From positions 1 through 39,917 of IMG/VR virus record IMGVR_UViG_3300042892_000806: a DNA stretch of 39,917 bases. One strand, given 5' to 3'. The position numbers were made by a program, and so were the translations under genes. Below, one piece after another: positions 1-15,575 of this stretch. The stretch comes from a virus. The notes beneath the pieces were generated by a model that was not told where the DNA came from, did no database searches, and worked only from the letters and a program-made list of their open reading frames with translations. How positions within the stretch are numbered: the first letter of the stretch is position 1; each line of letters opens with the position of its first letter.

Positions 1-57
1 ATCTTGCGAATTTCGATAATAACAAAAACTATCGCCGCCAATATAAACTTGTGTCAC
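1..57 (-). CDS. Partial 5' end of a possible SGNH/GDSL-type hydrolase
   Basis: An open frame starts with GTG at 57-55 and runs off the left edge. Its GTG overlaps the TGA stop of the carbamoyltransferase as GTGA, the same four-base coupling used throughout this operon. The 19 visible residues read MTQVYIGGDSFCYYRNSQD. A short beta-strand followed by GDSF is what block I of SGNH hydrolases looks like, with Ser as nucleophile; such enzymes often remove or add acyl groups on glycans, which would fit the neighbours. With only 19 codons visible, both the start codon and the family are tentative. Confidence 0.4.
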   Translation of the reverse strand, partial: MTQVYIGGDSFCYYRNSQD

Positions 58-1538
58 GAACACACCTTAACACCATATAGCTGTTCAAATCTATCAGCGT
101 CTGCGCGGTCGTTTACCATGGGCTCACCGCGTATGTTGAGACTGGTATTTAACAGCATAGGACATCCAGTCTCGGCATACCATGCTTCCAATAGTTTTCT
201 TATGCCTGATCCATCTCTAGGCACAGTCTGTACCCGACTGGTACCGTCAACGTGAATGATTGCTGGATACTGCTCCGGGAATCTACAGTGTGCAACTACC
301 TGCATGTATCTGCTGTCACTCCAACACTTTGGCATGATAAAATAACGATCAGCTAACTCTTGCAGTATCACCGGAGCAAATGGTCTAAACTTTTGTCTGC
401 GTTTGATTGAATTCACTTGGTCTTTTATGTCACTGCCACGAGGGTCAGCCAGCAATGATCTATTGCCTAGGGCTCGCGGTCCGAATTCCGCTCGGCCAGA
501 TGCCACGCCCACAATACGATCACTGAGAAGAGCAGCCATGGCACGCTCAACAGGGTAATCACCAGGTATATCATGCCCAAGACCAGCACTAGTCCACTGA
601 ACACGACCACCGTAAGCAAGAGCGGCGGCGCCCAGGCTACTGCCAGCATCACCAGGGCAAGGCATAATCCATATGTTATTAAAGTATTCACCTAACCTCC
701 TATTGGCCAGGCAGTTTAGTGCTACCCCGCCCATGTAAACCAAGTTGTCACTCCAGCCAAAGTTTCTAGCTCGAGTCATAACTTGATGTATTAGATACTC
801 TGTGAGTTGTTGTGCTGATGCTGCAATGTCTTCATTGGTTGCACAGCCCAGGAACTCAGAGTCAAGCCCTGTGTGTAAGTTTAATTTGAATCGTAGTTCT
901 TCAGGATTGTCTAGCAGTACGTCACGCATGACTTCAGTGTACTTGGGTGTGCCCCAGCCACTCATACCCATAGTAATATATTCTTCGTCTAGTGGGTGTA
1001 GGCCAATGCGCTGAGTAATAGCAGAATAGAATAATCCAATTGAATGTGGATAACTTTGCGACCAAAGTTTTTTATATGTTGCGCGATAATTTTTATCATA
1101 CATTGCTCCCCAGATTGACACAGTATCCCATTCGCCCACAGCATCTATCACCACAACTGTGGCTATGGGATAAGGGCTTGTTTGAAACCCAGCAGCCGCA
1201 TGACACAGGTGATGATTGTAGTTTTTTATGCGTTTGCCATTGACTTGGTCGGCGCCAATCTGCTGCTCTAGTATTTGTTGTGTGGTTATTTTGTTCCACT
1301 CAATACCCTGTCCTGCATACCATTGACGCAGTTGTTTCAGCCATGGACGCTCGTAGTACGCAACAGTATCTACTCGGTTCATGTCAATTTCGTTCAGCAT
1401 GGCTGATGAAATATCAGCATCATTTTTCTTTTTTGAGTAACGTTCTGAATGGCCGGCAAACACAATCTTGCCATGCTGGTCTAGCAAGGTCAAGGCAGCG
1501 TCATGAAAACCTGCGGATATGCCTAGAGTGTATTTCAT
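54..1538 (-). CDS. NodU/CmcH-family carbamoyltransferase
   Basis: 494 residues, close to the usual length of the NodU/CmcH/TobZ family. These enzymes transfer a carbamoyl group from carbamoyl phosphate, through a carbamoyl-adenylate, to a hydroxyl of a sugar or other small molecule. The N-terminal Kae1-like domain shows GISAGFHDAA at residues 6-15, HHLCHA at 109-114 (metal-binding histidines), VIDAVGEWDT near 130-139 and GGVALNC near 270. The C-terminal YrdC-like part shows GRAEFGPRALGNRSLLADPR at 348-367 and RQKFRPFAPV at 381-390. The ATG overlaps the stop of the 33-residue gene as ATGA. Its likely acceptor is a product of the glycosyltransferases or radical SAM enzymes encoded upstream. The family call is firm; the acceptor is unknown. 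Confidence 0.93.
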   Translation of the reverse strand: MKYTLGISAGFHDAALTLLDQHGKIVFAGHSERYSKKKNDADISSAMLNEIDMNRVDTVAYYERPWLKQLRQWYAGQGIEWNKITTQQILEQQIGADQVNGKRIKNYNHHLCHAAAGFQTSPYPIATVVVIDAVGEWDTVSIWGAMYDKNYRATYKKLWSQSYPHSIGLFYSAITQRIGLHPLDEEYITMGMSGWGTPKYTEVMRDVLLDNPEELRFKLNLHTGLDSEFLGCATNEDIAASAQQLTEYLIHQVMTRARNFGWSDNLVYMGGVALNCLANRRLGEYFNNIWIMPCPGDAGSSLGAAALAYGGRVQWTSAGLGHDIPGDYPVERAMAALLSDRIVGVASGRAEFGPRALGNRSLLADPRGSDIKDQVNSIKRRQKFRPFAPVILQELADRYFIMPKCWSDSRYMQVVAHCRFPEQYPAIIHVDGTSRVQTVPRDGSGIRKLLEAWYAETGCPMLLNTSLNIRGEPMVNDRADADRFEQLYGVKVCS

Positions 1539-1636
1539 TTGTAAATGAACGGATCTCTTTTGCGTAACTCTTTTAATTTTTTACGATAACGAATCTCTAG
1601 TGTGATTCTATCCCATATGCGTTTAATCCATGTCAT
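1535..1636 (-). CDS. 33-residue basic microprotein, doubly coupled
   Basis: ATG at 1636-1634 and TGA at 1537-1535 give 33 residues beginning MTWIKRIWDRITLEIRYRKK and ending in RDPFIYK. Its ATG overlaps the TGA of the 353-residue gene, and its own TGA overlaps the ATG of the carbamoyltransferase, so it exactly fills the only gap in this part of the operon. The composition is strongly basic and amphipathic (many K/R, regularly spaced I/L/W), suggesting a single helix. It has no signal peptide and no Cys. My recollection, not checked, is that short proteins with a KRDPFIY-like ending occur in other marine T4-like phages. Its function is unknown. It could be a scaffold or nucleic-acid-binding peptide, or less likely a substrate of the radical SAM enzymes. 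Confidence 0.72.
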   Translation of the reverse strand: MTWIKRIWDRITLEIRYRKKLKELRKRDPFIYK

Positions 1637-2694
1637 TTCAGTTTCCTTATTTGCTGTTCAGCATAATCTGGATCACTCCAGCGGTATTCATATGTAGCTT
1701 CGCCCCAACTGGTGCGTATACTGTACACATCAAGATGTGCAGCCAACTGCGCCCAGACACGTTGGTAATCTTCTGTTCTAAATGTTCGCATTAGGTCAAC
1801 TTGTGCCACCTTTGGGTGACCAATGGTGAGATTTTTGTCCTCTGGATCAAACCCATTGTCCAATAACCAGGTGCGGAACTCTTGTAATTTTTTGATTTGC
1901 CAATGATATGCTCCGGGATCACGGGCCCATTCGATATCAAAGTCGCCAGCGGCTTCAGTTTGTGTACGCAGTCCTGTAGTAACAAGTTCATTAACACGCG
2001 AATCCCTACCTTCATCATTGAACACCTCCCAGTGATGTTTGCCAACTGCTTTATTTACACCCAAATAAACACCACCTAGAGTTCGGTTAATGGTTTCAAT
2101 GCCAAACAATTCGTGGTCTTCGGGCTCTAGTGCAAAACGCGGCGCATTAAGCCAGCACATGAGTTGACTGGGTCTGCGCCACTCTGGGGCATGCACAGCC
2201 TTACGCATGCTCAATACCAGGCTTTCGTACTCGTGACACAGGAGATTTAACTGACGTATGTGCCAGCGTGTGGCAGGGTCTGCACGAGTGTAGTAATTTG
2301 AAATGCCACCAGACCACCCTTGCAGGTCTTCGAAGTATCTATGTAGATTATTCATCTTTTCATGCACTACATCACCAGCTGTTAAACTGGAACCAATGAT
2401 TCCTGGCTCAATGGTATTGTCTACTGTGTAAGCATCACAATCAATACAATAACCCAAGTTGCTTCCATTAATATGACCAATACTGGCATTAATTTGCCCA
2501 CAAAGGTATTCGGCATTTCTTTCATGTTCTGTCCATCCCATCCAACAGTAATTCTTTTCTAAATGCAAATCAGTTCTAATGATATCATTTAGCGCAGCCA
2601 GCCAACGACGACTTAGATTGTTGTCTGCTACATCTATATATACAGTCAGCATACTATTGGCGCCGCGCAGGTCTATTTCAATGTGATCAAGCAA
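1633..2694 (-). CDS. Unrecognised 353-residue protein of the radical SAM operon
   Basis: I do not recognise this family. The frame opens with TTG at 2694-2692, overlapping the preceding stop, with GGTGG about ten bases upstream. The first ATG is at 2652 (MLTVYIDVADNN) but has no clear ribosome binding site, so the start is uncertain. The protein looks soluble, rich in Trp, His, Asp and Arg, with no membrane segment. A CIDCD motif lies near residue 84, and the middle is rich in Arg, Trp and His (HIRQLNLLCHEYESL, APEWRRPSQLMCW). It lacks the CX3CX2C of radical SAM enzymes. Tight coupling to the radical SAM genes upstream and the carbamoyltransferase downstream suggests a partner enzyme or accessory protein of the same pathway. 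Confidence 0.8.
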   Translation of the reverse strand: MLDHIEIDLRGANSMLTVYIDVADNNLSRRWLAALNDIIRTDLHLEKNYCWMGWTEHERNAEYLCGQINASIGHINGSNLGYCIDCDAYTVDNTIEPGIIGSSLTAGDVVHEKMNNLHRYFEDLQGWSGGISNYYTRADPATRWHIRQLNLLCHEYESLVLSMRKAVHAPEWRRPSQLMCWLNAPRFALEPEDHELFGIETINRTLGGVYLGVNKAVGKHHWEVFNDEGRDSRVNELVTTGLRTQTEAAGDFDIEWARDPGAYHWQIKKLQEFRTWLLDNGFDPEDKNLTIGHPKVAQVDLMRTFRTEDYQRVWAQLAAHLDVYSIRTSWGEATYEYRWSDPDYAEQQIRKLK

Positions 2695-3976
2695 TTTTAT
2701 TCCACCATTCTAGCACCGCTGGTCTTTGGGCAAGTATTTCTGCCATGGTGATCTTCTGTGTGCGGATGCTTTCTAATTGTAACACACGAGCCCGGCCTTT
2801 TGCAAGCCCTGCTCGATATGTATCCGGCCATTGTTCTTCAAACGTAGGACGGGTTTTTAATTGTAGCAGTACATCACGCATGGCACCTGCGGAGCGGCCT
2901 GCTAGTTCATCTATCCAAGGATCCAACAAGTGTCTAGGTAGCGCAAGTGGACTCATAATAATATCCGGTGAGAAACTGAATATCACTTTGGCTAACAGTT
3001 GTACCCCATACGTCTGTGATAACTTTTCCATTGCGCCGGTCTCGAACATGCCGGGGAGTGTGAGGGTAAAATCAAGACGCATTTGTCTGGGGTGGGTAGC
3101 ATAACGGAGTCCGTGTTCAAAATTACGACAGAACTGTTCATAATCCAATCCTGTACGAATATATTCCCCGATCTGTTCAGTTCCATCCAACGAAGCACAT
3201 ATTTGCCAATCGCGAATGTGCGCCAGGATATCATCAAATAGATCCACACCGCCGTAGCGCACACGGCTGAGATTAGTATTATATCTAGCATAAACACGTG
3301 GACCATCTCCTAATTCAATGATTCGTCGCATGTAGCGCCAGTGCTGTTCGTACATTAACGGTTCGCCACCCACCCAGTATATTTCTTCTACTCTGTGTTG
3401 TTCCACTGCTGAACTGAATTCTTCTTCGATTTGTGTGTCTTGAAATTGAGTGATCTCTCTACGCACATCCGGCTGCATCCAGGTGTTTTTGGCATTAGAC
3501 CAGTCTACCATTTGATGCTGGCGCTGTTCTGTTTCCCAACTGGAACTCAGCATGTCGCCACAGGTTCTACATTTAAAATTGCACAGGTTTGAAAAGCGAT
3601 AATCCCAGCTTACAGGCAGCATTGAGGTACGCCCATTTAGATCTGTTTTTCCAATTACATCATCATATTTGTGCTGAAAAAGATGCCAAAAGTATGTGCG
3701 ATAAACATCTGTGTTTAGCAGCTTGTCATTGCATACTTGGCATTCGGGTAAGGTTTCTCCGGCCATCATGCGTCTGCGCACACTCTGCATGTGTGGTGAA
3801 TTCCAGTGTTCTTCAAGTGTGACAGGAATGTACTCACCAGTGCCCGATTCAGTATCTATGTACTGTTTGAAGTTCTGCGCAGGTTCTCGTGATGCACAAC
3901 ACATTCGTCTTTCTGTTTGCGGACTCAGGTATGTGTGAGTCCAGGGGGCCATACACAATGTGTCAGGCTTGGTCAT
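2687..3976 (-). CDS. Radical SAM protein with N-terminal twitch/SPASM-like domain
   Basis: 429 residues. The radical SAM CX3CX2C motif is at C132, C136 and C139 in NLCNFKCRTCG and should bind the [4Fe-4S] cluster that cleaves S-adenosylmethionine. GGEP at 203-206 is the usual SAM-binding motif after the second strand. Ahead of the barrel is a cysteine domain (C8, a CC pair at 26-27, CQVC at 79-82) that looks like a SPASM or twitch auxiliary-cluster domain placed N-terminally, as in the N-twitch radical SAM family. The ATG overlaps the preceding gene by 14 bases and the stop overlaps the next gene by 8. The closest relatives in the window are the 406- and 562-residue proteins. The substrate is unknown. 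Confidence 0.9.
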   Translation of the reverse strand: MTKPDTLCMAPWTHTYLSPQTERRMCCASREPAQNFKQYIDTESGTGEYIPVTLEEHWNSPHMQSVRRRMMAGETLPECQVCNDKLLNTDVYRTYFWHLFQHKYDDVIGKTDLNGRTSMLPVSWDYRFSNLCNFKCRTCGDMLSSSWETEQRQHQMVDWSNAKNTWMQPDVRREITQFQDTQIEEEFSSAVEQHRVEEIYWVGGEPLMYEQHWRYMRRIIELGDGPRVYARYNTNLSRVRYGGVDLFDDILAHIRDWQICASLDGTEQIGEYIRTGLDYEQFCRNFEHGLRYATHPRQMRLDFTLTLPGMFETGAMEKLSQTYGVQLLAKVIFSFSPDIIMSPLALPRHLLDPWIDELAGRSAGAMRDVLLQLKTRPTFEEQWPDTYRAGLAKGRARVLQLESIRTQKITMAEILAQRPAVLEWWNKIA

Positions 3977-5183
3977 TGTTATAATTCAAAATGTCAGCTA
4001 TTTCGGGGGCTACTGTGCGTAGATTTTGTTCTCGTTTGCGATCTAAATCACGTATCTTCATGCGAGTCATGAATCCATCTGTACTTGCACCGTTATTCAT
4101 AAAGTCAATAATTCTATCAAATTCCCCACGATATTGCAACGGCACATCGGCTGTGCGTAAATGTTCAGTAATCACGACTTTAGCTGTGATAGGTAATGTG
4201 GCAATTGAAAAGTACCATGCGTCATGCATCATGTTCCAGTACACAAAGTCAAAGCGTTGTAGTGCTATCCAATTAGCCAGTTCGTCAATGTAACGCACGT
4301 TGAATATGTTTACAGTACTACAGCACTGCAAACGCAGGTTAGGCAGCTGAGTCTGCAGATATTGAAAACTTGTGATTGTGTCCAGTACCACTGCCCAGTC
4401 TGCATTGGTGCGTTGATATTCAAATCTTGCACCCACATCGTCTATTGAGAATGCCACTTCTACTGTTTTGAAATGACGCCAAATCTCTGGGCCGCGTGTG
4501 GGCCATTGTGTACCATTTGTGTTGTAGTGTATTTCAACTTGATGTGCAATGCCACGATCCACGATGCCTTGCAACATGTCAAAGTGTTCAGCAATCATAA
4601 ATGGCTCACCACCAGTGAATTCAATGTAGCGTATGTGATTCAAACACTGATCAATTTCTGCCCAAAATGATTGATTTTCTCTGGGCCATGCTCCGGCTCG
4701 TAGCATTTGATAGGGAAATGATTTCTTTTTATCCTCATCCGGATGCATGTCATTTAATTCTTCTGTGGCGAATTGACTGCTAGACCATGAACCGCAAATA
4801 CGGCATTTTAAGTTGCAGATGTTGCCCAGCTTTAAATCCAGGAACATCAAAGATTTGGCATCTTGAGTCCATTCACCCGAAATGCCCATGTGTTTCATTC
4901 TGTCTAGTGTGTGCATGCGTTTGCTGGTGCGTCCAGACCGTTCTTCCATCCAGCATTTTCTACAGGTTTGTGGTTTCTTTCCTGCCAAAAACTCTTCACG
5001 CAGTTGAGTCATTGCCTGTGAGTTTTGTATGCTTGCAAAGTCAGCTGTCAACATTGAGAACTTGTTGCCTGCGTCATCTACCAGTTCATCGTCTGCTAGA
5101 CAGCATGGGCGCACTGTGCCAATGGGCGAGGCTTCTAAAGAGACCCAGGGCAACACACAGAATTTAGGGTGCGGTATATTCAT
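3963..5183 (-). CDS. Radical SAM protein with N-terminal twitch/SPASM-like domain
   Basis: 406 residues. The CX3CX2C is C123, C127, C130 in NICNLKCRICG, and FTGGEP is at 189-194. The N-terminal auxiliary cysteines are C9 (FCVLPW), a CC pair at 27-28 and CRKC at 74-77, followed by WMEERSGRTSKR. These are the same landmarks, at nearly the same spacing, as in the 429- and 562-residue proteins, so the three form one subgroup. The ATG overlaps the upstream stop as ATGA, implying coupled translation. SPASM/twitch enzymes commonly modify peptides or sugars by hydrogen abstraction; which applies here cannot be read from the sequence. Confidence 0.9.
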   Translation of the reverse strand: MNIPHPKFCVLPWVSLEASPIGTVRPCCLADDELVDDAGNKFSMLTADFASIQNSQAMTQLREEFLAGKKPQTCRKCWMEERSGRTSKRMHTLDRMKHMGISGEWTQDAKSLMFLDLKLGNICNLKCRICGSWSSSQFATEELNDMHPDEDKKKSFPYQMLRAGAWPRENQSFWAEIDQCLNHIRYIEFTGGEPFMIAEHFDMLQGIVDRGIAHQVEIHYNTNGTQWPTRGPEIWRHFKTVEVAFSIDDVGARFEYQRTNADWAVVLDTITSFQYLQTQLPNLRLQCCSTVNIFNVRYIDELANWIALQRFDFVYWNMMHDAWYFSIATLPITAKVVITEHLRTADVPLQYRGEFDRIIDFMNNGASTDGFMTRMKIRDLDRKREQNLRTVAPEIADILNYNNDQA

Positions 5184-6868
5184 TTTAATGCTGCCAATTC
5201 TGGAATAATATCCAATATGTTTTCATTTCGTATTACGTCTAGTTTGTGAGTCTTGATCCAGAACTGATTTATTAGCTGTGTGTTGTCTATGGCCATCATA
5301 AAATTAATAGCTGATTCAAATCCCACTGTGGCTCTGTGCAAATGATCACGCGAGCGCAACCATTCTAAATGGTCCATGAATTTTTGTTTAATTTGTTGTT
5401 TGTATTTGTCCGGCGCAATGTCTATGCGATAACACACAGGATCTTGCAGGATGTTTACATTTAAATCCTGTGGTTGTAATAGGCCTTTTTCCACCCAGTC
5501 GCGATGAAAATCTGGCAGGTGCATGGCATTCATTATGCTCAAGGTAGGAGAGATATAAAAATCCACTTGGGGACATGTGGCTATCATGTCCCTGCGGTTT
5601 TGTTCTACCACAGCCCAGTCTGTACCTTTGCGTATGTATTCACCACGTGCGCCCGAATCGTCTAGACTGGCACCCACAGCCACACTCTTAAACTGTTTCC
5701 AGTATTCAAATACGCTTTTGCCTTTGAGCTCAGTGTGCGTGAAGTTTGTGTTGTATATCAATCGCACATCAAATCGTTTTCTTTTAACAAGCTCTTCTAA
5801 GATGTTGTAGTGTTCTTCCATTAAGAGTGGTTCGCCGCCTGCAAAGTAGATCTGTTCTACATAGTCCAAATGGGGTTCTAGCTGTTCCCACATGTCTGTT
5901 TCTGTGCGCCCTGCATAGTTTAGCACTGTGTTTTTTTGTTTCCAATCGCCCCCGGCCAATTTGGCTTGATCTTGATACCATTGTGAACTAAAGATATGTC
6001 CGCATGATCTACAACGCAGGTTGCATAAGTTTGAAAAACGAATATCCCAGTAAGTCATTTCAAACTGTTCTAGTGTGCCATCTTCTTGTGTGTTGTGTAC
6101 ACGATTGATTTGATGTCCATGATGTTTGTTGGCACTTTGTCTTCCGCTGAAAAATCCTGAACTTTCTTGTTCATGGCATTTGCGGCAGGTTTCATTGGCA
6201 GTACCATTCAGCATGTCCAAGCGCAATTGTCGCATGGGCGAGCCATTCCATATTTCAGCCAGTGTTTGTTGACGTGCATCGCCATATTTGGGGTGCTGTG
6301 TTGCATGACAGCAAGGATATGCTTCGCCGGTGGGCCAGGCATGCATGTGAATCCAAGGATAAATGCAAAAGTTTTTGCTTTCACTCAATAAAAATTTATC
6401 ATGCTCGCTAACGTCTTTAAGATTGATTTTGATAGGATTTGCTGATCCATATTGATATTGTTCGCTTCTGCTGTAGGGATGTTGGGCTAAATTTATACGT
6501 TCGAACGAACCCGGCACTGCTGAATGCTTTATAGGCACCGGGTCCGAGCTTTGTGAATTAATAAATTCTATTTCTTTTTCAATGTCAGGACAAGTGCTCA
6601 AAATCACAGCAAAAAAGTTGCTGATATCTTCTTCATTCAATGCAATTTGCAGATTACGCAAGATCAATCCCACAGGCCCTGTGATCTGCACATAATAATC
6701 TTTTGTGTGTAAGAACACTATGCGTTGATTTTCTGTGTATTCACTTTGATATATTGCACGAAGTTTGTGGCGCAACCATTTTGTGCTGGCGTCATAATCA
6801 TCGGTCCAGTCTGACAGATCAATTGTGGCCACAACATCGTGTTGCTGTTTTAGTTCTTCTAGGGTCAT
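5180..6868 (-). CDS. Radical SAM protein with about 160-residue N-terminal extension
   Basis: 562 residues from the ATG at 6868. I chose this over the longer frame beginning at 6883 because 6868 overlaps the previous stop as ATGA, the operon's usual arrangement. Counted from that start, the CX3CX2C is C282, C286, C289 in NLCNLRCRSCG and GGEP is at 344-347. The auxiliary cysteines are FCIYPW near 168, a CC pair near 186 and CRKC near 228-231. Residues 1-160 have no counterpart in the four sister proteins. They look like an independent alpha/beta domain (a DLSDW segment, then repeated hydrophobic helices), ending in a Ser/Gln/Tyr-rich linker. This could be a recognition domain such as a RiPP-recognition-like element, but that is only an idea. 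Confidence 0.9.
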   Translation of the reverse strand: MTLEELKQQHDVVATIDLSDWTDDYDASTKWLRHKLRAIYQSEYTENQRIVFLHTKDYYVQITGPVGLILRNLQIALNEEDISNFFAVILSTCPDIEKEIEFINSQSSDPVPIKHSAVPGSFERINLAQHPYSRSEQYQYGSANPIKINLKDVSEHDKFLLSESKNFCIYPWIHMHAWPTGEAYPCCHATQHPKYGDARQQTLAEIWNGSPMRQLRLDMLNGTANETCRKCHEQESSGFFSGRQSANKHHGHQINRVHNTQEDGTLEQFEMTYWDIRFSNLCNLRCRSCGHIFSSQWYQDQAKLAGGDWKQKNTVLNYAGRTETDMWEQLEPHLDYVEQIYFAGGEPLLMEEHYNILEELVKRKRFDVRLIYNTNFTHTELKGKSVFEYWKQFKSVAVGASLDDSGARGEYIRKGTDWAVVEQNRRDMIATCPQVDFYISPTLSIMNAMHLPDFHRDWVEKGLLQPQDLNVNILQDPVCYRIDIAPDKYKQQIKQKFMDHLEWLRSRDHLHRATVGFESAINFMMAIDNTQLINQFWIKTHKLDVIRNENILDIIPELAALK

Positions 6869-8196: not shown

Positions 8197-9286
8197 TGAA
8201 TAAATTATTAACTTTATAGTGTTGTTCGTCAGCCCAAGCATACCAACGTTGTCTGTTGTGTAACAAATCCGGTAGCATGCGATTATATAGATCCAGCAAC
8301 TCAGTTGGGCTTAACACAGACAATTGTTTTATTGCACCTATTAGGGCCAAGTGTAGCGTGTCATTGTGCTCCCACGTCGGCCCTGAACGAAGTTTAAGAC
8401 CCGGAAAATAGTGATCAAATGTGCGAAATCCATTGTCCTCCCAAAATTTATAATTTTGTGATTGCCCGTTAATTAAAAAAGGACGTAGGCCAATGATAGG
8501 TTTAAAATCAATTTGATTTATAAATGTATCATGTGGGTTGTTACTTGTGCCACCTACAATGTGTAGGAAATGATGTTTCCAATAATGCATGTTGTGCAAA
8601 CTGAACAAATCATGTGGAATATCGTGTGGGGTGGAGTCTGGATGGTCAGTGTACCAGTGCCCGTATTTGACATAATCTTGATTTTTTTCACCAATGGAGA
8701 AATATAGTTCACTGTCCGGTCCAGTGTCACCCGGAAAAGCCCTTCCTAGGGTTACCACTCCAAGATCTTTCACATCATGTTCGATTAATTTTTTTACAAA
8801 ATTTAATCGATGTACATATGGTTTGCGATTGTAACTCATAAACAAGTACTTGGGATCAGTCAATATCAACTCTTCAGTTTGATAAGTTTCAAAATGATCT
8901 CTACATGCAACAGCAAACAAGTTAAAATAATGAGTTGTGCTATCAACTGGCGCCCATTTTGGTCTAGGAGTGTCAAAATTTCCCAAGAAGTATGTGTGTT
9001 TGATCCCTAACTTTTTGACTAATTCTAATACTACTGGTCGATGGTGTGGTTCAAAAAAATCCACAGTGGCTACCACAAATAAATTGTCAAATGATTCGCC
9101 GGTATTCAACCATTCGTGTAGTTTTACATCATTGTCTGGAGTAGGGCGCCAGGTGGTGTTAAACAAAAAATTGCGTTGGTCGGGAAATGCCTGATCAATT
9201 TGTTCCTGAATACTGGCTAGGATTGACTGTTCGTACTTGCCGTAAGTCCAGGTGTCCGGAAAAGAAATAATTAAACTAGTGATCAT
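8189..9286 (-). CDS. Glycosyltransferase-like protein, paralogue of its upstream neighbour
   Basis: 365 residues, no membrane segments. A strand-rich N-terminal half is followed by PKYLFMSYNRKPYVHRLNFV at about 145-164, which matches YKFLFLNGRTRPHRKYMIES in the next gene upstream at the same relative position. The C-terminal half has FKPIIGLRPFLINGQSQNYK followed by FWEDNGFRTFDHYFPG. This parallels the nucleotide-sugar-binding half of GT-B-like enzymes in exostosin- or fucosyltransferase-like families, where the chain reads roughly K.i..G.p.i......y...i...Gf.tf. The ATG overlaps the upstream stop as ATGA. I infer a transferase; the catalytic residues and donor are unknown. Confidence 0.72.
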   Translation of the reverse strand: MITSLIISFPDTWTYGKYEQSILASIQEQIDQAFPDQRNFLFNTTWRPTPDNDVKLHEWLNTGESFDNLFVVATVDFFEPHHRPVVLELVKKLGIKHTYFLGNFDTPRPKWAPVDSTTHYFNLFAVACRDHFETYQTEELILTDPKYLFMSYNRKPYVHRLNFVKKLIEHDVKDLGVVTLGRAFPGDTGPDSELYFSIGEKNQDYVKYGHWYTDHPDSTPHDIPHDLFSLHNMHYWKHHFLHIVGGTSNNPHDTFINQIDFKPIIGLRPFLINGQSQNYKFWEDNGFRTFDHYFPGLKLRSGPTWEHNDTLHLALIGAIKQLSVLSPTELLDLYNRMLPDLLHNRQRWYAWADEQHYKVNNLFNE

Positions 9287-10392
9287 TTGAGATTGAAAGT
9301 CTGTTCAACAAAACGTAGAAACTGCTGAGGAAATTCAGCGCGAATTCTAGGGCCAAGATCAGCCATATGCTGTTGATTATACTTACTTGTTTGTTCAGCC
9401 GCGACCAGGAATTCTGCCAGATCTTGTTGACACAAGTCTTTGATGACTGCTACAATCCTGTCCAATCTGTCTTGATTGTTGTCTATTGAGTCAAATGATT
9501 CGTCAATTAAATTGCTGTATGTTTGAAACCCTTGATTGCGTATATCCCGATAAAAGCCACGATTGGCCGTCGCGATCCAAGGATGACCCATTGCTATGGG
9601 CTTGTATATCTTTTCCGAGCGCAGACTATAGGGATAGTCGCACACAGTTTCTGTTACCACACTGAAATAGGTATCAATGTACGGCTCGGCTTGTATGTAG
9701 ATTTCGCCCCACAAGTTGTTGAATAATTCATTTTTCACAAAAGGCATTTGATAGGATTGCTTTATTCCATTATGAAATTGCGGAACTTCGTATTCGGCTG
9801 GTAGCAATCGTATTTCACCAGCGCCAGTCAATAGATCAGTCTGATATATGTGATTGTATACCGAGCTTGAGTCTAGGTTGGTCCATAGTGCTTGATCTAG
9901 TATGGGTCGCAGGCTTTCGATCATGTATTTTCTATGCGGGCGTGTGCGGCCATTCAAGAACAAAAACTTGTAGGGTTTGATTAATTTGGAATATATTTCA
10001 TCCACCCTAGCACACTGATCAAGATTTTCTTTGTATTCATAAGGCTTGCACAGGTAGATGTCGTAGAACAAGTGCGGCAGATCAGGTTCCATATCACCAC
10101 AGCCTACTAGTGCCAGTTTGTGTTGCTTCAGTAAATCAATCAGCCCCAGGCGTTCGCATTGATGTTTTAACACAATGCTTCCTTCTGTGGGATTGGCCAG
10201 CACAGGATAAAAGAATCCCGACTCTGCCAATTGTTTAATCCGTTCGTAATGCTGATTGAATGTCTGCCGGCTGAACACTGTAACACTATGAGCCACAGGT
10301 TCATGCTGACCAAAGTCCCAGAAACTGTCATCACAATAAGTTTCTATTTGCGAATAGATTTCACAAAAGGTATCACAAATGAGCTTGTGCAT
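9283..10392 (-). CDS. Glycosyltransferase-like protein (GT-B/exostosin-like)
   Basis: 369 residues from the ATG at 10392 (MHKLICDTFCEIYSQ). A GTG six codons earlier is open, but AGG lies a suitable distance before this ATG. YKFLFLNGRTRPHR is at about 141-154. FSVVTETVCDYPYSLRSEK followed by IYKPIAMGHPWIA is at about 243-275. The E...SEK..KPI..G.P.I pattern is typical of the donor-binding region in exostosin- and GT10-like transferases. The pair with the 365-residue protein probably arose by duplication. It sits between two radical SAM genes, which ties glycosyl transfer to the radical chemistry. The family is inferred from motif shape only. Confidence 0.72.
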   Translation of the reverse strand: MHKLICDTFCEIYSQIETYCDDSFWDFGQHEPVAHSVTVFSRQTFNQHYERIKQLAESGFFYPVLANPTEGSIVLKHQCERLGLIDLLKQHKLALVGCGDMEPDLPHLFYDIYLCKPYEYKENLDQCARVDEIYSKLIKPYKFLFLNGRTRPHRKYMIESLRPILDQALWTNLDSSSVYNHIYQTDLLTGAGEIRLLPAEYEVPQFHNGIKQSYQMPFVKNELFNNLWGEIYIQAEPYIDTYFSVVTETVCDYPYSLRSEKIYKPIAMGHPWIATANRGFYRDIRNQGFQTYSNLIDESFDSIDNNQDRLDRIVAVIKDLCQQDLAEFLVAAEQTSKYNQQHMADLGPRIRAEFPQQFLRFVEQTFNLK

Positions 10393-11767
10393 TTCGGGCC
10401 TGGTACGCACATTCTGCCCACCATGACTTCATTTCGGGAAAGGTCTTCAAAAAGTCAGTGCCTCTGCGGCGATCGTGTTCTTGAAAGAATCTATAAAAGT
10501 CTGCCTTGGCTTGGGAATGATCTTGATTTTGGCCAGCTCGCATCCACGCAATGTCTCTGTCCAGGCGAGCAATCTCATAATCTTTAAATCCGTGAAATGG
10601 ATCTTCGGGTGTTTCGCTTTGGCGTATCATCCAAGCCCACAAGTGTTCTAGCCGGTCAACGTAGGCTTCGGGTAAGATTTGCAAGCTCTGCCATGCAGGT
10701 TCACGCAGTACAGGTGTATCAAACCACACTCGTTGATAGGTCTGTGAGTATGTGTTGCGCAAGCCCAAGATGCCAGCAAACAAGTTTTCTAGAGAGGGCA
10801 CACTCAAGTTATTCATTGTTACAATAAAGGTCAGACTATTGTAGCTGGGCACTTCGGTTAGGAATTGATTCACTCTATCCCACAGCAGATCAAAGTCCAG
10901 CCCGTGGCGCATGTATTCTGCTTGTGTGCCCCAGCCGTCTAGGCTCACATACTGCATGAAGTGTTCTATACGGCCGTCGCACAATTGCTTAACATAGCCC
11001 AAGTACTTTTGCCAGGACTTCTCATCCACACTAAAGTTTGATGTAACATTCAAATGCAGTTTGGCACTGGGATTGGCCAGCACATGATCAAACACTCTGT
11101 ATGTGTTCTTATCTAATAGCGGTTCACCGCCGGTCATGCGGAAGTGTATGAGTTCTGGATATAACTTAGGCCACCACTCCCAGAATGCTTCTACATAAGG
11201 GTTATGCTCTCTAGCCGGTATAACCCTGCGATCTCCACCAAAATGCCCAGGATCATTGTGAACACGAGCAGTAGGGTAGCCGCCCGATCGGTCCACTTCT
11301 TGTTGCCAGCTGCTAGAGAATTGCGGACTGCAATAACTGCACATGAGATTACACACATTATTAAAATTGACTTCAACGTAGCTAGGGATAACGTCACTTT
11401 CTTCTCCTGTTGAATTCCGTATCTGTTCAAAGTCCACGGCAGCCCAGGGCTCTCCAGACCGATAATGCCTGTCACTCAGTTTGTTTTCCGCTTCCATGTT
11501 CCAGCAGTACTGACACTCTGCGGGTTTTTCGTTTTGCAACATCATCACACGCTGAGCTTTTTTGTGCGGCGTGTTGTGCAAGGATCCGGGGTCATTGACC
11601 AAGTTTTCCACGGGTATCTTGTGTAGTGGAGGGTGGTAACAGGAGTTGTTGAGTCCTGTGGGCAAGTGCAAACTGACCTGCTTCCATTTGGCCAAGCACA
11701 ATGCTGGACCAAGTTTGGCCTTCATTTCCTCTGCACTATTGTAGAAAGCACTTTTATTTGCAGTCAT
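10373..11767 (-). CDS. Radical SAM protein, second subgroup
   Basis: 464 residues. CX3CX2C at C139, C143, C146 in NVCNLMCSYCSP; MTGGEP at 211-216. The N-terminal cysteine block reads CLAKW at 24-28, then NNSCYHPPLHKIP, HNTPHKKAQRVMM and CQYCWNME at 85-92. The C-terminus has EHDRRRGTDFLKTFPEMKSW. These blocks match the 443-residue protein and separate both from the CC-type trio. It is the first radical SAM gene of the operon, overlapping the sulfotransferase-like gene by 14 bases upstream and the glycosyltransferase-like gene by 20 downstream. A further ATG 14 codons in is possible but leaves less overlap. Confidence 0.91.
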   Translation of the reverse strand: MTANKSAFYNSAEEMKAKLGPALCLAKWKQVSLHLPTGLNNSCYHPPLHKIPVENLVNDPGSLHNTPHKKAQRVMMLQNEKPAECQYCWNMEAENKLSDRHYRSGEPWAAVDFEQIRNSTGEESDVIPSYVEVNFNNVCNLMCSYCSPQFSSSWQQEVDRSGGYPTARVHNDPGHFGGDRRVIPAREHNPYVEAFWEWWPKLYPELIHFRMTGGEPLLDKNTYRVFDHVLANPSAKLHLNVTSNFSVDEKSWQKYLGYVKQLCDGRIEHFMQYVSLDGWGTQAEYMRHGLDFDLLWDRVNQFLTEVPSYNSLTFIVTMNNLSVPSLENLFAGILGLRNTYSQTYQRVWFDTPVLREPAWQSLQILPEAYVDRLEHLWAWMIRQSETPEDPFHGFKDYEIARLDRDIAWMRAGQNQDHSQAKADFYRFFQEHDRRRGTDFLKTFPEMKSWWAECAYQARNAQAHL

Positions 11768-12425
11768 TGGTTTCTTCTAATATGGCTTTGACTTCTTGGT
11801 AGTTCACAATGAGATCATCAAAACCAATACCATAATTGTTTTTTTCATACATTGATTTGGCAACGTCCGGCCAGGTCACTAGGTCTTCGTAGACAACAGT
11901 TTCATCACAGTCAAATCTGGCCAGCAATTGTTTTTCAGCCAAAAATTGAAACACTGTGTCAGCAGACACAGTTAACTTTTGATCTTTCAAACTGTCAAAA
12001 TTTCCAACTTTATAAGTGAACAGTTCTTTCTTAAAACTATGTACTGGCACAGTGGCATGAAAGTTTTCTAGGATTTGTTTGCTGAAAAAATGTTGTATAT
12101 TGTCATTTCTTTTTAACACAATAATGTGATAATCTTTCAGCCAACTAGAATTTGTTGACAACAGCCAAACTTTGATTTGAAAGTCTTGTATTTGACTGAT
12201 CAGATACTTAGAATTACCAGCCATGAGGTCAACTTGCTTTTTGTAAAAGGCACTGACTTTTTCAACACTTTGATCGTAATAGTGAAAGTTTTCTGTGAGC
12301 GACCTATGACTGACATTGGCCAATTTCAATTTATTAGAAATAATATCTCCCAGCAAATGGGATCCTGATCGACCAACTGTTATAATGATGGTTCCTTTTT
12401 TGTTGGGATCATAAAGTTTTACCAT
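11754..12425 (-). CDS. Sulfotransferase-like P-loop protein
   Basis: 223 residues. GTIIITVGRSGSHLLGDIIS at 11-30 matches the 5'-phosphosulfate-binding loop of PAPS-dependent sulfotransferases (a strand, then GRSGS in the P-loop position). HIIVLKRNDNIQHFFSKQ at 100-117 fits the strand with the 3'-phosphate-binding Arg and Ser (R106, S115). VVYEDLV near 178-184 is also usual in this family. It is somewhat shorter than most members. The expected role is transfer of sulfate from PAPS to a hydroxyl of a sugar or peptide. The overlaps with its neighbours (7 and 14 bases) place it in the same pathway as the glycosyltransferases and radical SAM enzymes. Confidence 0.8.
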   Translation of the reverse strand: MVKLYDPNKKGTIIITVGRSGSHLLGDIISNKLKLANVSHRSLTENFHYYDQSVEKVSAFYKKQVDLMAGNSKYLISQIQDFQIKVWLLSTNSSWLKDYHIIVLKRNDNIQHFFSKQILENFHATVPVHSFKKELFTYKVGNFDSLKDQKLTVSADTVFQFLAEKQLLARFDCDETVVYEDLVTWPDVAKSMYEKNNYGIGFDDLIVNYQEVKAILEETNDCK

Positions 12426-13351
12426 CCTTCTTGCTCCCGGATCACATCAATCTCGCGGGTCATTATGCCTTGGTTGTGCCAGTTAGATCTGTAGTGCCGT
12501 TTAAAGAATTCACTTTGTTCTGCTTCCATCACAATCATGGGCAGGCCCAGTTGTGTGTTGAGATCTTCTGCCAATCGCCCGGCCAATAGCCTGGGTTCTG
12601 AGGTTTCAACTGTTCGCCATAATTCAGCCAGTGCTTCAAAGTTCTGTACTAGAGTATGATCCCAGGCAGTAAGCATGGTCATGTATGTGCCTTGTCGTGC
12701 ACCGGCCATGGCCCAGTATCCGTGGTCAGCATCAGCACCCACATTGTGCCAAATGGTCAAATGATCCAGGTTGCGTTGATGCACACGATCTTGAAACTCT
12801 GCTGTGGTGGGTTTGCGTCCACGGTCCAGGCACATTTTGACGCCTTCGCGGAAGCCTGCACGCCAAGCATGGAATGGGGAACCGTTGGGGTAGGTGGTTG
12901 AATAACAGTCGTACATGGGCCAGTACAAGGGATCAAAACAAAATTCCACTTGTGTTTCTACTGTGCCGTCTGTGGCTTCATGAGTACGCATGTTTTCCAC
13001 AAAGTCTTTTGTCCATGAACTCAAGCCGCCGTTGCCATACATCAGTCCATTAATATGATTACGTGCCCGCCACCGGAACACAGCACTCTCATATTCTTTG
13101 CCAGGAAAAACAAGTGTTTGATTAAAAAACGCCGGGTTGGGGAGATTGTCGCCATCGATGAGAATGAATCGATCCGTACTACTCGCCCGGGCTGCCGCTT
13201 TGTGAGCCGCATCGCTCCCCAGAATACCGTCCACCCTTCGTGCCCAAGGCACCATATTCCTAATCTTGATCCAAAATTCTTCTCGTTGTGGTTCATCATA
13301 TGTCAAGTATATGCAGTCCAAGTCTGCTATGTCAATTTGATTCAAGGCCAT
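12419..13351 (-). CDS. GT-A-like glycosyltransferase with DGDN motif
   Basis: 310 residues. The N-terminal strand IYLTYDEP (14-21) and the segment VPWARRVDGILGSDAAH (34-50) lead to RFILIDGDNLPNPAFF at 61-76. The DGD after a hydrophobic strand is the DxD metal- and nucleotide-sugar-binding motif of GT-A glycosyltransferases. The middle is rich in Tyr, Trp and His (FDPLYWPMYDCYSTTYPNG), as expected of an acceptor pocket. No membrane segment is seen, so it is probably cytoplasmic. It overlaps the 111-residue gene upstream by 20 bases and the sulfotransferase-like gene by 7. The GT-A class is likely; the donor and acceptor are unknown. Confidence 0.78.
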   Translation of the reverse strand: MALNQIDIADLDCIYLTYDEPQREEFWIKIRNMVPWARRVDGILGSDAAHKAAARASSTDRFILIDGDNLPNPAFFNQTLVFPGKEYESAVFRWRARNHINGLMYGNGGLSSWTKDFVENMRTHEATDGTVETQVEFCFDPLYWPMYDCYSTTYPNGSPFHAWRAGFREGVKMCLDRGRKPTTAEFQDRVHQRNLDHLTIWHNVGADADHGYWAMAGARQGTYMTMLTAWDHTLVQNFEALAELWRTVETSEPRLLAGRLAEDLNTQLGLPMIVMEAEQSEFFKRHYRSNWHNQGIMTREIDVIREQEGW

Positions 13352-13667
13352 ATGTTTGTTTGCTCCATGGTGTTCCGTTTTGAGTGACTACAACCGCAAC
13401 CGATTGCGGATGACACAGTGTACCTGTGTTGCCGGGCACAAGTTTGTCTGATGTGCGAGTAGTAATGTATTTGAGTTGACCATCAACCACACGCACATTG
13501 GCAGGTGCCAGGCCAAATGTTTCAGCATCAATGTTAATGTAATTACCTGGCAGATCTTCCATGCTATAACAAACAGGCAGCCCTGCATCATTGTAGTACA
13601 AACGATAGAACACAGGTTGGGGTTCAGGCATGCTGTGTAAAATATCCCAAAACTCTTCAGGTGTCAT
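13332..13667 (-). CDS. Small conserved-type phage protein, 111 residues
   Basis: 111 residues from the ATG at 13667, chosen because AAGGA at 13680-13676 lies 8 bases upstream; the frame is open to 13700 through a GTG and an ATG. The protein has a run of beta-strand-like segments: VFYRLYYNDAGLPVCYSMED, NYINIDAETFGL, VRVVDGQLKYI and CHPQSVAVVV. I recall similar proteins with a YSMEDLPGNYIxID core in marine T4-like phages, but no function is known to me. It sits between two glycosyltransferase genes, overlapping both (11 and 20 bases). Confidence 0.78.
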   Translation of the reverse strand: MTPEEFWDILHSMPEPQPVFYRLYYNDAGLPVCYSMEDLPGNYINIDAETFGLAPANVRVVDGQLKYITTRTSDKLVPGNTGTLCHPQSVAVVVTQNGTPWSKQTYGLESN

Positions 13668-14433
13668 AACGCCAGTCCTTAACATGATAGTGAAACGCAC
13701 CCCATTGTGCTTGAGTCTGTATACGCATGGGATTGAATTCCCACACTAACTCATTAGTCCATTGAGATGTCTTTGTGCCAGAGTGTGCTTGTTTCATGTG
13801 TACAATCCGTGGGTATGTTGTAAATGGCATGGTCACTAGTTCTCTGCCAATTATGTCTGCTGCCATTGCGTACACAAGGTCAGTACTGGGCACATCTTCA
13901 GGAAACTTAATTAACTTCCGAAACTCTGACCAATTGGCAAATATATCACGCACCAGTACAAAAAAATCTCTAGCTGTTTCACTCAATCGCCAGTAGGTTA
14001 TAGCATTGTACACATCTGGTAAATTGTTAGCATCAAACACTTTTCTATAGTGCCTGGCTGTGCTGACCTGATCCTGCCATGTTCTGCAACTCGTAGATAT
14101 CACAACATCTCTGTGTCTAAACATAGTCCACCAGTGATCAATTGAACTGGCAATCATCATGTCTGCTTCTAGCTTGATGGTTTCTCTATAGGGAGATTGG
14201 AAAAATACTTGCCAGTCGTTTGCATACAAGTTATCGCGATTGACATTGTCAATCACACGATAGTGATTGTAAAGTGGGTCGTTGGCATGAGTCTTGTCCG
14301 TGATCAAGCAAACACTGGCATGAGGATTCCATTGTTTGATTGTTTTTGTCAGTGTTCTAGCACAATCCAAGTAGTCAACTTGGGGCGTGTTCAAGGCTAA
14401 TATCACATAGCCTTGTTCTTCTATGGATTTCAA
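13657..14433 (-). CDS. GT-A-like glycosyltransferase, TTG start
   Basis: 258 residues starting with TTG at 14433-14431. The start is supported by AGGAG at 14444-14440, six bases upstream; no ATG occurs until residue 91. GYVILALNTPQVDYLDCA at 8-25 parallels ALIFAFDTEHTRYLDMAA of the next protein upstream. RETIKLEADMMI at 83-94 occupies the place of the DxD motif, with EAD replacing DAD. The downstream part has an AITYWR segment near 145-150, a W-rich helix and PSTDLVYAMA. The gene overlaps the 281-residue gene by 59 bases, unusually long for this operon, so the start deserves caution. The two proteins are paralogues. Likely a GT8-like or related GT-A enzyme. Confidence 0.78.
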   Translation of the reverse strand: MKSIEEQGYVILALNTPQVDYLDCARTLTKTIKQWNPHASVCLITDKTHANDPLYNHYRVIDNVNRDNLYANDWQVFFQSPYRETIKLEADMMIASSIDHWWTMFRHRDVVISTSCRTWQDQVSTARHYRKVFDANNLPDVYNAITYWRLSETARDFFVLVRDIFANWSEFRKLIKFPEDVPSTDLVYAMAADIIGRELVTMPFTTYPRIVHMKQAHSGTKTSQWTNELVWEFNPMRIQTQAQWGAFHYHVKDWRYDT

Positions 14434-15220
14434 CTATTGCTCCTAAATCTCTTTTGCCCATGGCATGAAAGTCCAGCCCAACAATTGAGACTGTTTTACA
14501 TTTGCCCTGTGCATCTTCATACTCAATATTCCAGAACGTTTCATTATCAAGCGTTAGTTTGTTTTCGGGCACCACACTGGGCATGCCCCAGGGTATGGCA
14601 TCTACTTTTAGTGTCTGGCCACTCACAATACCTAATGCTATACTCAGTGCATAGTCGTTTCTGTATGTGGGTTGTGAGATGTGATAGAGATCTCTGTAGT
14701 GCTTCCAGTTCTCACGAATCATCTGCATGGCATCAAATATGTATTGCGCTGTGTTGGTTTTACGAAACATCATCACAGTGGCCCAGTACATGGGAAATTT
14801 ATATGTACCAAAAGTGTTTAAAAATTCTTCCTCTGGCCTAGCAAGATTGTATGCTGATCTAAAGCACATGAAATCTTGTGGGCTGTCAAGCAACATTTTT
14901 AAATCTTCACTATTGACCACAAAGTCAGCGTCTAACACTAGAGTCTGATCCCAGGGCGACAGATTGTATGCATCTACTCTATTGTTGTTGTGCCAAGGTA
15001 CATGTTGTTTTATGTCTCCAAACCAGCGTGAGTTCTCACCTAGTGGATCAGCATATATTACCCGATCAAACACATCTTCGTGCTCAGCGGCAGGATTGTT
15101 TGTGACCACTGCTACAGGAATGTGTAAGAAGTGTTTGACTCGTTCGGCACACCATGCTGCCATATCCAAGTAGCGTGTGTGTTCTGTGTCAAAAGCAAAT
15201 ATTAGTGCGCCGGTAGTCAT
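14375..15220 (-). CDS. GT-A-like glycosyltransferase with LDAD motif
   Basis: 281 residues from the ATG at 15220, which overlaps the upstream stop as ATGA. The frame stays open a further 19 codons upstream, but those would overlap the preceding gene with no reason. ALIFAFDTEHTRYLDMA at 5-21 and a VAVVTNNP strand at 36-43 lead to TLVLDADFVV at 93-102, the DxD-type motif of GT-A enzymes acting on nucleotide sugars. YWATVMMFRK near 140-150 and NDYALSIAL further on fit the acceptor side. It is a paralogue of the 258-residue neighbour. Donor and acceptor unknown. Confidence 0.8.
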   Translation of the reverse strand: MTTGALIFAFDTEHTRYLDMAAWCAERVKHFLHIPVAVVTNNPAAEHEDVFDRVIYADPLGENSRWFGDIKQHVPWHNNNRVDAYNLSPWDQTLVLDADFVVNSEDLKMLLDSPQDFMCFRSAYNLARPEEEFLNTFGTYKFPMYWATVMMFRKTNTAQYIFDAMQMIRENWKHYRDLYHISQPTYRNDYALSIALGIVSGQTLKVDAIPWGMPSVVPENKLTLDNETFWNIEYEDAQGKCKTVSIVGLDFHAMGKRDLGAIVEIHRRTRLCDISLEHAPS

Positions 15221-15522
15221 CGTTTGGTGCTGAGTTCGTTGTGTTCTGTCAGCCAGGCATTCATTTGCTCTTGCCAACGTTGCATGGCCAAGCCGCGCAG
15301 TTCTTCAGGCCGTATTTGAACAGGAGTTTCATACAAGTCTAGCAGCACTGCATCACCTGGTGGCACAGTGGCCAAGATGTTTAGGAGTTCAGGACCAGCA
15401 CGCCACATACCTCCGTCGTGGGCAAATATCATTCGAGCTTCGTATTTTTCTCGGAGTATGCGCTTGGCAGCCACGTGATCAAAACGAGCACGGCTGTGCG
15501 AAATTAAATCGTCAGTGTTCAT
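15217..15522 (-). CDS. Small conserved-type phage protein, first gene of accessory operon
   Basis: 101 residues from the ATG at 15522 (MNTDDLISHSRARFDHVAAK); a start at 15564 would lie inside the terminator hairpin and is rejected. The sequence looks helical at both ends, with EKYEARMIFAHDGGMWRAGP and VLLDLYETPVQI in the middle. I recall similar proteins near the tail genes of marine T4-like phages, but with no assigned role. It is the first gene after the terminator that closes the virion module. Its TGA overlaps the next ATG as ATGA, so it may be the entry point for translation of the whole accessory run. I saw no clear Shine-Dalgarno sequence before its ATG. Confidence 0.8.
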   Translation of the reverse strand: MNTDDLISHSRARFDHVAAKRILREKYEARMIFAHDGGMWRAGPELLNILATVPPGDAVLLDLYETPVQIRPEELRGLAMQRWQEQMNAWLTEHNELSTKR

Positions 15523-15553
15523 GTTGTGATTGTACAGGATGTACAGGGAAAAG

Positions 15554-15575
15554 TAAAGGGGCAACAGCCCCTTTT
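15554..15575 (-). terminator. Hairpin terminator after the virion module
   Basis: On the minus strand AAAGGGGC pairs with GCCCCTTT around a TGTT loop (arms 15574-15567 and 15562-15555), followed by ACTTTT. The hairpin starts three bases after the TAA at 15580-15578, the expected place for a factor-independent terminator. Because the arms carry A and T runs, it might also work on the plus strand. It separates fibre genes from the radical SAM/glycosyltransferase run. Confidence 0.8.

Follow-up and report, generated by a model that had tools for sequence, protein, structure and literature searches.

Glycosyltransferase and radical S-adenosylmethionine (SAM) genes are already known from the tail-fibre region of aquatic T4-like phages, where the pelagimyophage host recognition cluster carries both as cassettes (Zaragoza-Solas 2020, PMC7029224). 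Phages that combine multiple radical SAM genes with iron-sulfur (Fe-S) carriers are likewise known, and one report presents a marine T4-like virus with 12 radical SAM genes and an A-type Fe-S carrier (Nishimura 2017, PMC5332604). Glycans are also carried by mycobacteriophage capsid and tail tube subunits (Freeman 2023), a system in which radical SAM enzymes and carbamoylation play no part as cited in PMC12619734. Here we describe an operon in the IMG/VR virus record IMGVR_UViG_3300042892_000806, a linear fragment of 39,917 bases analysed in its entirety and hereafter called the window, in which five radical SAM genes, several glycosyltransferase-like genes and a carbamoyltransferase (CT) gene stand beside fibre genes.

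The glycosyltransferase and radical SAM genes of this operon lie beside tail-fibre genes (43/43 and 37/37 linkage), as in the pelagimyophage cluster; the latter is, however, hypervariable and non-syntenic (PMC7029224), whereas the operon has a fixed core order and its own promoter. Multiple radical SAM genes and an Fe-S carrier are shared with the virus of PMC5332604, but the available part of that report describes no operon, CT or partner peptide. In the literature and collections searched, outside which most subscription papers lay, we found no description of a fixed five-radical-SAM operon or of a peptide partner for CT. Radical SAM chemistry is sensitive to oxygen and demands much iron. 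Even so, phages that are widespread in lakes and oceans maintain five different copies in an operon of fixed order and usually have an Fe-S carrier as well. Our findings indicate that the operon probably encodes one coordinated tailoring pathway, a judgement that applies at the pathway level alone. Such a conserved virus-encoded pathway, with no known product, would imply new enzyme chemistry and possibly a novel type of decoration on virions or hosts, and the operon provides a testable handle on competition among aquatic phages.

Conservation of the operon in freshwater and marine phages

Sixteen minus-strand genes run from 15522 to 54, each overlapping the next by 4-59 bases. An earlier note on this DNA, made from the sequence alone, had described a run of fifteen overlapping genes to the left edge; the continuous overlaps stand, but the genes number sixteen once an unlisted 33-codon open reading frame (ORF), orf33, is added. 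With the fifteen listed genes only, the interval from the g02 stop at 1633 to the CT start at 1538 leaves 94 bases uncovered, and orf33 spans this sole gap with an ATGA overlap at either end. Several gene starts are uncertain; with the best-supported starts we count five ATGA junctions, in place of the seven ATGA or GTGA junctions reported before. As the record ends 53 bases past the last gene, the operon may extend further.

From 129 viral stretches found in a search with rS3, we retained 80 loci as a freshwater set. Across these 80 viral contigs gene order is essentially invariant, extra genes being confined to set slots. The g02 search reached at least 538 viral stretches, and its sample overlaps the rS3 sample in many contigs, being independent in query and not wholly in records. 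Among its loci, rS2-rS5 are present in 65/65 with at least 9 kb upstream, and orf33 and CT in 60/60 with at least 3.5 kb downstream. A marine version was first seen in contigs binned with bacterial metagenome-assembled genomes (MAGs) and then in 64 viral loci. All 41 fully flanked marine loci have the order (fib, g16, g15,) GTA14, GTA13, g12, GT11, rS1, rS2, rS3, rS5, rS4, SGNH-like, CT, without g02 and GTB1; one marine locus has the freshwater rS4-rS5 order. Homologs of the operon genes are thus not scattered: co-occurrence and order are near-perfect in both groups of phages, which supports the earlier proposal of a tailoring pathway. The ratio of nonsynonymous to synonymous substitution (dN/dS) against close relatives is 0.03-0.22 for every gene where it was computable and, together with an order common to more than 100 contigs, this excludes a chance origin of the operon. 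Since tblastn in 50,697 phage records gave no relative of g02, GT11, GTB1, g16 or orf33, we found no sequenced isolate with the operon.

Among the slot genes, which include enzymes with Pfam support, are those for methyltransferases (FkbM and Methyltransf_11), NAD epimerase, AMP-binding ligases, Trp halogenase and extra radical SAM proteins. An SGNH hydrolase, which the earlier note had thought might be encoded here, was not found in the window; SGNH-like genes, whose product scores below the curated cut-off, fill slots in relatives. The window's own inserts are GTB2 (7/80 relatives) and a 223-residue P-loop protein (1/80). The latter had been called sulfotransferase-like, an assignment that rests on an N-terminal GRSGSH motif and finds no Pfam, NCBIfam or PDB match. 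A fixed core with swappable slots makes it practical to infer substrates by comparison.

Two side observations concern these loci. Amid the cytosolic operon enzymes at L030:2502-3422 is a TctC-like protein (assigned by eye; nine members) with an apparent signal peptide, which is odd for the locus. Contigs of Pelagibacter, Betaproteobacteria and Rickettsiales MAGs (L168, L169 and L170) carry the phage operon together with fibre genes, which suggests that they are phage contigs wrongly assigned to bacterial bins.

Five distinct radical SAM paralogs

The earlier identification of five radical SAM proteins is borne out, all five exceeding the curated cut-off of 170 bits for NF033640 (N_Twi_rSAM; Table 1). 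To our knowledge no activity has been assigned to this family. The phage proteins share with its members generally an N-terminal twitch followed by the radical SAM core, and differ in the conservation of five separate paralogs within a single operon. CxxxCxxC is present in all intact orthologs (73-81 per paralog), and four twitch cysteines N-terminal to the core (C173, C192, C233 and C236) are invariant in a 12-sequence alignment. The residue sets for both Fe-S clusters are retained, and SAM cleavage is predicted.

Each paralog forms its own clade in which freshwater and marine orthologs are joined, with support of 0.97-1.0 for rS1, rS2, rS4 and rS5 and a less clear grouping for rS3. Because freshwater and marine orthologs cluster paralog by paralog, the five paralogs are older than the marine/freshwater split. 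The N-terminal extension of rS3 (~165 residues) is seen in about 20 orthologs. In the large contigs of related phages, NF033640 genes number 6-19 per contig, and the Fe-S carrier PF01521 is present in 14/16. Cultured Vibrio phage K566/K567 has six N_Twi_rSAM genes but lacks the full operon. Bacterial relatives occur mainly in Bdellovibrionota, Flavobacteriales and Elusimicrobia MAGs.

The rS3 of the window is 71-74% identical to that of relatives whose rS1, rS4 and rS5 are 87-94% identical, and reads as an allele swap inside the operon. Elsewhere, an Elusimicrobia MAG contig (L175) has six N_Twi_rSAM ORFs in succession (277-1128 residues), and a contig labelled Rickettsiales (L194) has 12 radical SAM ORFs within 21 kb.

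The carbamoyltransferase and its 33-residue partner

Both Pfam domains, Carbam_trans_N and Carbam_trans_C, are present in CT, confirming the carbamoyltransferase of the earlier note. The protein can be aligned, across the HHLxHA and GRAEFGPRALGNRS motifs, with the O-carbamoyltransferases GdmN and TobZ and that of novobiocin, its nearest solved relatives are antibiotic O-carbamoyltransferases, and it matches the phage Nol-like CT family phrog_1601. The domains and motifs are common to NodU, TobZ and GdmN; the phage CT is, however, shorter (494 residues), is coupled to a 33-residue partner and scores 131 bits against a cut-off of 1000 in the NodU equivalog model, which makes it a superfamily member and not NodU.

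In the rS3-query set orf33 is found at 69 loci and is 70-97% identical. We collected its family by a collection-wide pattern search on the C-terminal motif, which gave at least 120 viral stretches, followed by a hidden Markov model test. CT lies downstream on the same strand, mostly adjacent, in 82/92 loci with room downstream, whereas only 22/84 family loci of at least 6 kb have an N_Twi-like radical SAM gene; hence the peptide belongs to CT and not to the radical SAM enzymes. A role for orf33 as precursor of a ribosomally synthesised and post-translationally modified peptide (RiPP) was considered and ruled out, since it tracks CT and its C-terminus is conserved in place of a variable core. 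No second conserved small ORF was found, though such ORFs were not sought systematically. No NCBIfam model matches the orf33 family, which is easily overlooked in gene calling, and no orf33-like motif lies next to CT in S-CAM1, S-CAM8, HTVC008M or C48C1.

Related arrangements were seen elsewhere. Three loci that lack a carbamoyltransferase (L221, L231 and L279) encode a fusion of the DPFIYK tail with an N-terminus rich in Cys (CGHxSHCxxKC). A Bacteriovoracaceae MAG encodes a CT fused to a twitch radical SAM protein, adjoining a DegT aminotransferase. Marine virus AG-345-D19 (L083, 7,955 bases) combines an orf33-like peptide, CT and a radical SAM gene with methyltransferase-, sulfotransferase- and amidinotransferase-like genes and two SGNH-like genes; with some genes assigned by eye, this locus appears to be a second, different decoration cluster.

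Glycosyltransferase-like and other core proteins

Three GT-A-like and two GT-B-like glycosyltransferases had been proposed. GTA14 (14375) and GTA13 (13657) are indeed mutually homologous (hhalign 98.6%), GTA14 having a conserved DxD and GTA13 E-A-D, but GT11 (12419) has no detectable relation to either and is GT-A-like by its conserved DGDN motif only. The best PDB matches to an AlphaFold2 (AF2) model of GTB1 (mean predicted local distance difference test, pLDDT, 90) are GT-B enzymes, among them a GT10 fucosyltransferase and GumK, although these matches are weak (E at least 0.012, template modelling score about 0.3-0.4); GTB2 is a putative glycosyltransferase-like protein. The confident AF2 model of g02 has no PDB fold match, and its relatives in BFVD are all from phages. 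PDB yielded no useful sequence match to the profiles of the glycosyltransferases or of g02.

Transcription of the operon

A hairpin with a T-rich tail separates g16 from g15 in 42/44 distinct freshwater loci, where variation in the stem leaves pairing intact. The corresponding counts are 0/35 at the fib17-g16 junction, 3-9 of 50-61 at three intra-operon junctions used as controls, and 3/44 in marine loci. A sigma-70-type promoter with 17-base spacing lies at the head of the operon. A score of 10/12 or more is reached by 25/45 freshwater and 32/45 marine sites, compared with 0-25% of control gene starts and 1-6% of shuffled sequences; the window's own site falls below this threshold at 9/12. 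Upstream of fib17, 8/11 freshwater and 0/40 marine loci have a T4-type late motif, TATAAATA. The promoter, terminator and late-motif pattern points to independent transcription of the operon, probably early or middle, and its inclusion in a late structural transcription unit was dropped on the terminator and promoter evidence. On the map the operon does directly follow the fibre genes, as the earlier note had it, and baseplate genes, but this implies no co-transcription.

Proposed function and alternatives

Our preferred, though tentative, reading is a cytosolic glycoconjugate-tailoring pathway with a phage fibre-region protein as acceptor. The product is probably sugar-based, given the glycosyltransferase-like genes and the CT family. 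We infer the glycan substrate, the order of the steps, the role of orf33 and the acceptor as follows. The operon would be expressed from its own sigma-70-type promoter as a cytosolic, phage-borne pathway, in which GTA14, GTA13 and GT11 (with GTB1 in freshwater phages) would use host nucleotide sugars to build or lengthen a short glycan. The five non-redundant twitch radical SAM enzymes could then perform successive radical steps on the sugars or the attachment residue, for which oxidation, epimerisation, deoxygenation and C-H functionalisation are candidates. CT would add a carbamate cap, with orf33 as adaptor or regulatory subunit, and enzymes of the swappable slots (methyl-, AMP-ligase, epimerase, halogenase, SGNH-like and possibly sulfo-) would provide phage-specific end-decoration. 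The likeliest acceptor would be a fibre-region protein of the phage itself, Ser/Thr-rich g16 being the lead candidate, and the outcome a finished virion with variable decoration. It is tempting to go further and picture a five-enzyme twitch radical SAM relay that makes a new radical-modified, carbamoylated glycan or glycosylated residue on particles, with the LRKRDPFIYK peptide as a dedicated CT subunit; in this complete form the proposal is speculative and rather unlikely but, if true, it would amount to a chemically new type of post-translational decoration encoded by viruses.

A virion fibre-region acceptor is favoured because the operon is invariably linked to fib17-g16 (37/37 and 43/43, fib17 lying upstream of g16 in 37/37 loci), because g16 is Ser/Thr-rich (26.9-34.1% Ser+Thr across relatives) and charge-poor, and because membrane enzymes were not found. 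The core proteins have no transmembrane-like segments, at most one such segment occurs in any of 166 slot ORFs, and PF00483, PF02397 and PF00953 were found in none of 16 large relatives, whose contigs are possibly incomplete. This lack of membrane, lipid-carrier and nucleotidyltransferase enzymes favours fibres or other soluble acceptors, and we regard the phage's own fibre-region proteins as more likely acceptors than the host surface. A Cys-crosslinked radical SAM substrate was also considered for g16 and ruled out, its cysteines not being conserved.

Several points weigh against our preferred reading. Marine g16 is lower in Ser/Thr (median 25.6%), and the richness of g16 may be explicable by a beta-structured fibre component alone. 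The evidence for glycosyltransferases consists of motifs and of fold matches that are weak. If the predicted terminator and promoter work, the freshwater operon is not co-transcribed with virion genes, and because of this separation early host take-over fits as well or better. Host-surface remodelling, in which early-made enzymes would modify cytosolic lipid-linked O-antigen or capsule precursors and so exclude competing phages, draws on exactly this separation; in addition, the exchangeable decorating enzymes recall O-antigen diversity, and Zaragoza-Solas et al. interpret their similar glycosyltransferase-rich, tail-fibre-adjacent pelagimyophage clusters as host O-chain modification (PMC7029224). 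We nevertheless consider it somewhat unlikely. The membrane flippase and bactoprenol glucosyltransferase of a Gtr-type seroconversion cassette are not matched in the operon, the core and slots are as poor in membrane and lipid-carrier functions as described above, and the invariant fib17-g16 linkage would go unexplained. A small-molecule or peptide natural product (a toxin, signal or cofactor-like compound) made and released during infection is less probable again. Radical SAM, O-carbamoyltransferase, AMP-ligase, Trp-halogenase and methyltransferase genes in combination do recall antibiotic clusters, but we noticed no genes for non-ribosomal peptide synthetases, polyketide synthases, export or immunity at these loci, the genes conserved next to the operon are those for fibres, and the sole conserved small ORF, orf33, pairs with CT, often without radical SAM genes, and has a conserved C-terminus unlike a RiPP core.

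Two further explanations have little to recommend them. Radical SAM proteins take part in thymidine hypermodification. Glycosyl, radical SAM and carbamoyl steps might decorate phage bases against restriction, and some phages do glycosylate modified cytosine (PMC6024577); however, a thymidylate-synthase/hydroxymethylase family occurs in only 2/16 contigs and the operon sits with fibre genes, so that we hold DNA hypermodification to be very unlikely. A search for Tet/JBP gave no match and was uninformative, since its control gave none either. The alternative that unrelated auxiliary genes, not forming one pathway, accumulated by coincidence in a hypervariable host-recognition region could appeal to the variable slots seen here and to the gathering of cassettes in T4-like tail-fibre-proximal regions (PMC7029224). 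It is hardly credible in the face of a fixed core order, complete co-occurrence in two lineages, five separately conserved paralogs, a single head promoter and purifying selection.

Features of the window and neighbouring structural genes

Table 1 Operon genes, regulatory signals and adjacent fibre-region genes of the window
Feature	Coordinates	Strand	Evidence
CT, NodU/TobZ-type O-carbamoyltransferase, 494 aa	54..1538	-	PF16861 1e-47, PF02543 7e-37; PDB 9s2t 7e-47, GdmN, TobZ
orf33, 33-aa microprotein MTWIKRIWDRITLEIRYRKKLKELRKRDPFIYK	1535..1636	-	ATGA-coupled both sides; conserved family
g02, conserved protein, 353 aa	1633..2694	-	AF2 pLDDT 85; fold without PDB match
rS5, N-terminal-twitch radical SAM	2687..3976	-	NF033640 280 bits; CNFKCRTC and 4-Cys twitch
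rS4, N-terminal-twitch radical SAM	3963..5183	-	NF033640 324 bits; CNLKCRIC
rS3, N-terminal-twitch radical SAM, N-terminally extended	5180..6883	-	NF033640 406 bits
rS2, N-terminal-twitch radical SAM	6865..8241	-	NF033640 295 bits
GTB2, accessory, putatively glycosyltransferase-like	8189..9286	-	In 7/80 relatives
GTB1, GT-B-like, core, fast evolving (start possibly 10392)	9283..10410	-	79/80 loci, ~40-50% identity; AF2 pLDDT 90
rS1, N-terminal-twitch radical SAM	10373..11767	-	NF033640 316 bits
Accessory P-loop (sulfotransferase-like?) protein, 223 aa	11754..12425	-	1/80 loci, essentially window-private
GT11, DGDN-motif protein, GT-A-like by motif	12419..13351	-	72/80 loci, ~76% identity
g12, conserved protein, 122 aa (start possibly 13685)	13332..13700	-	69/80 loci
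GTA13, GT-A-like, GTA14 homolog	13657..14433	-	phrog_1903 5e-12; hhalign 98.6% to GTA14
GTA14, GT-A-like, conserved DxD (ATG at 15220)	14375..15220	-	Motif and hhalign
g15, conserved protein, 101 aa, first gene of operon	15217..15522	-	Upstream of GTA14 in 43/43 loci
Predicted sigma-70-type promoter TTTACT-17-TACAAT, operon head	15529..15557	-	Score 9/12
Predicted intrinsic terminator AAAGGGGCTGTTGCCCCTTT + ACTTTT, between g16 and g15	15555..15574	-	42/44 distinct freshwater loci
g16, Ser/Thr-rich (33%), charge-poor fibre-region protein; candidate acceptor	15578..16576	-	Composition and linkage
fib17, tail-fibre/virion-type protein	16589..18370	-	phrog_14394 virion structural 3e-9; both ends homologous to Atu_ph07 gp176

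In transcription order, the minus strand of the window encodes a gp25-like baseplate protein, a gp6-type baseplate wedge protein, a 5,333-residue protein, g18, fib17 and g16, followed by the operon. Judged by their homologies, these structural genes represent the tail region of a T4-like jumbo phage. The gp6-type wedge protein has relatives in the jumbo phages Phosso, Atu_ph07 and 121Q. The single gene of 5,333 codons at 19200-35201 is a distant relative of that for gp180, the 4,449-residue virion structural protein of Agrobacterium phage Atu_ph07, and g18 is 49% identical to gp177 of the same phage.

A further protein of Atu_ph07, gp170 (L216:21119-22009), is encoded in the published structural cluster, has the C-terminal end FCHSSCHASCHNSRSRR and adjoins the canonical radical SAM gene gp171. 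It is possible that gp170 is, in a cultured phage, a virion protein matured by a radical SAM enzyme.

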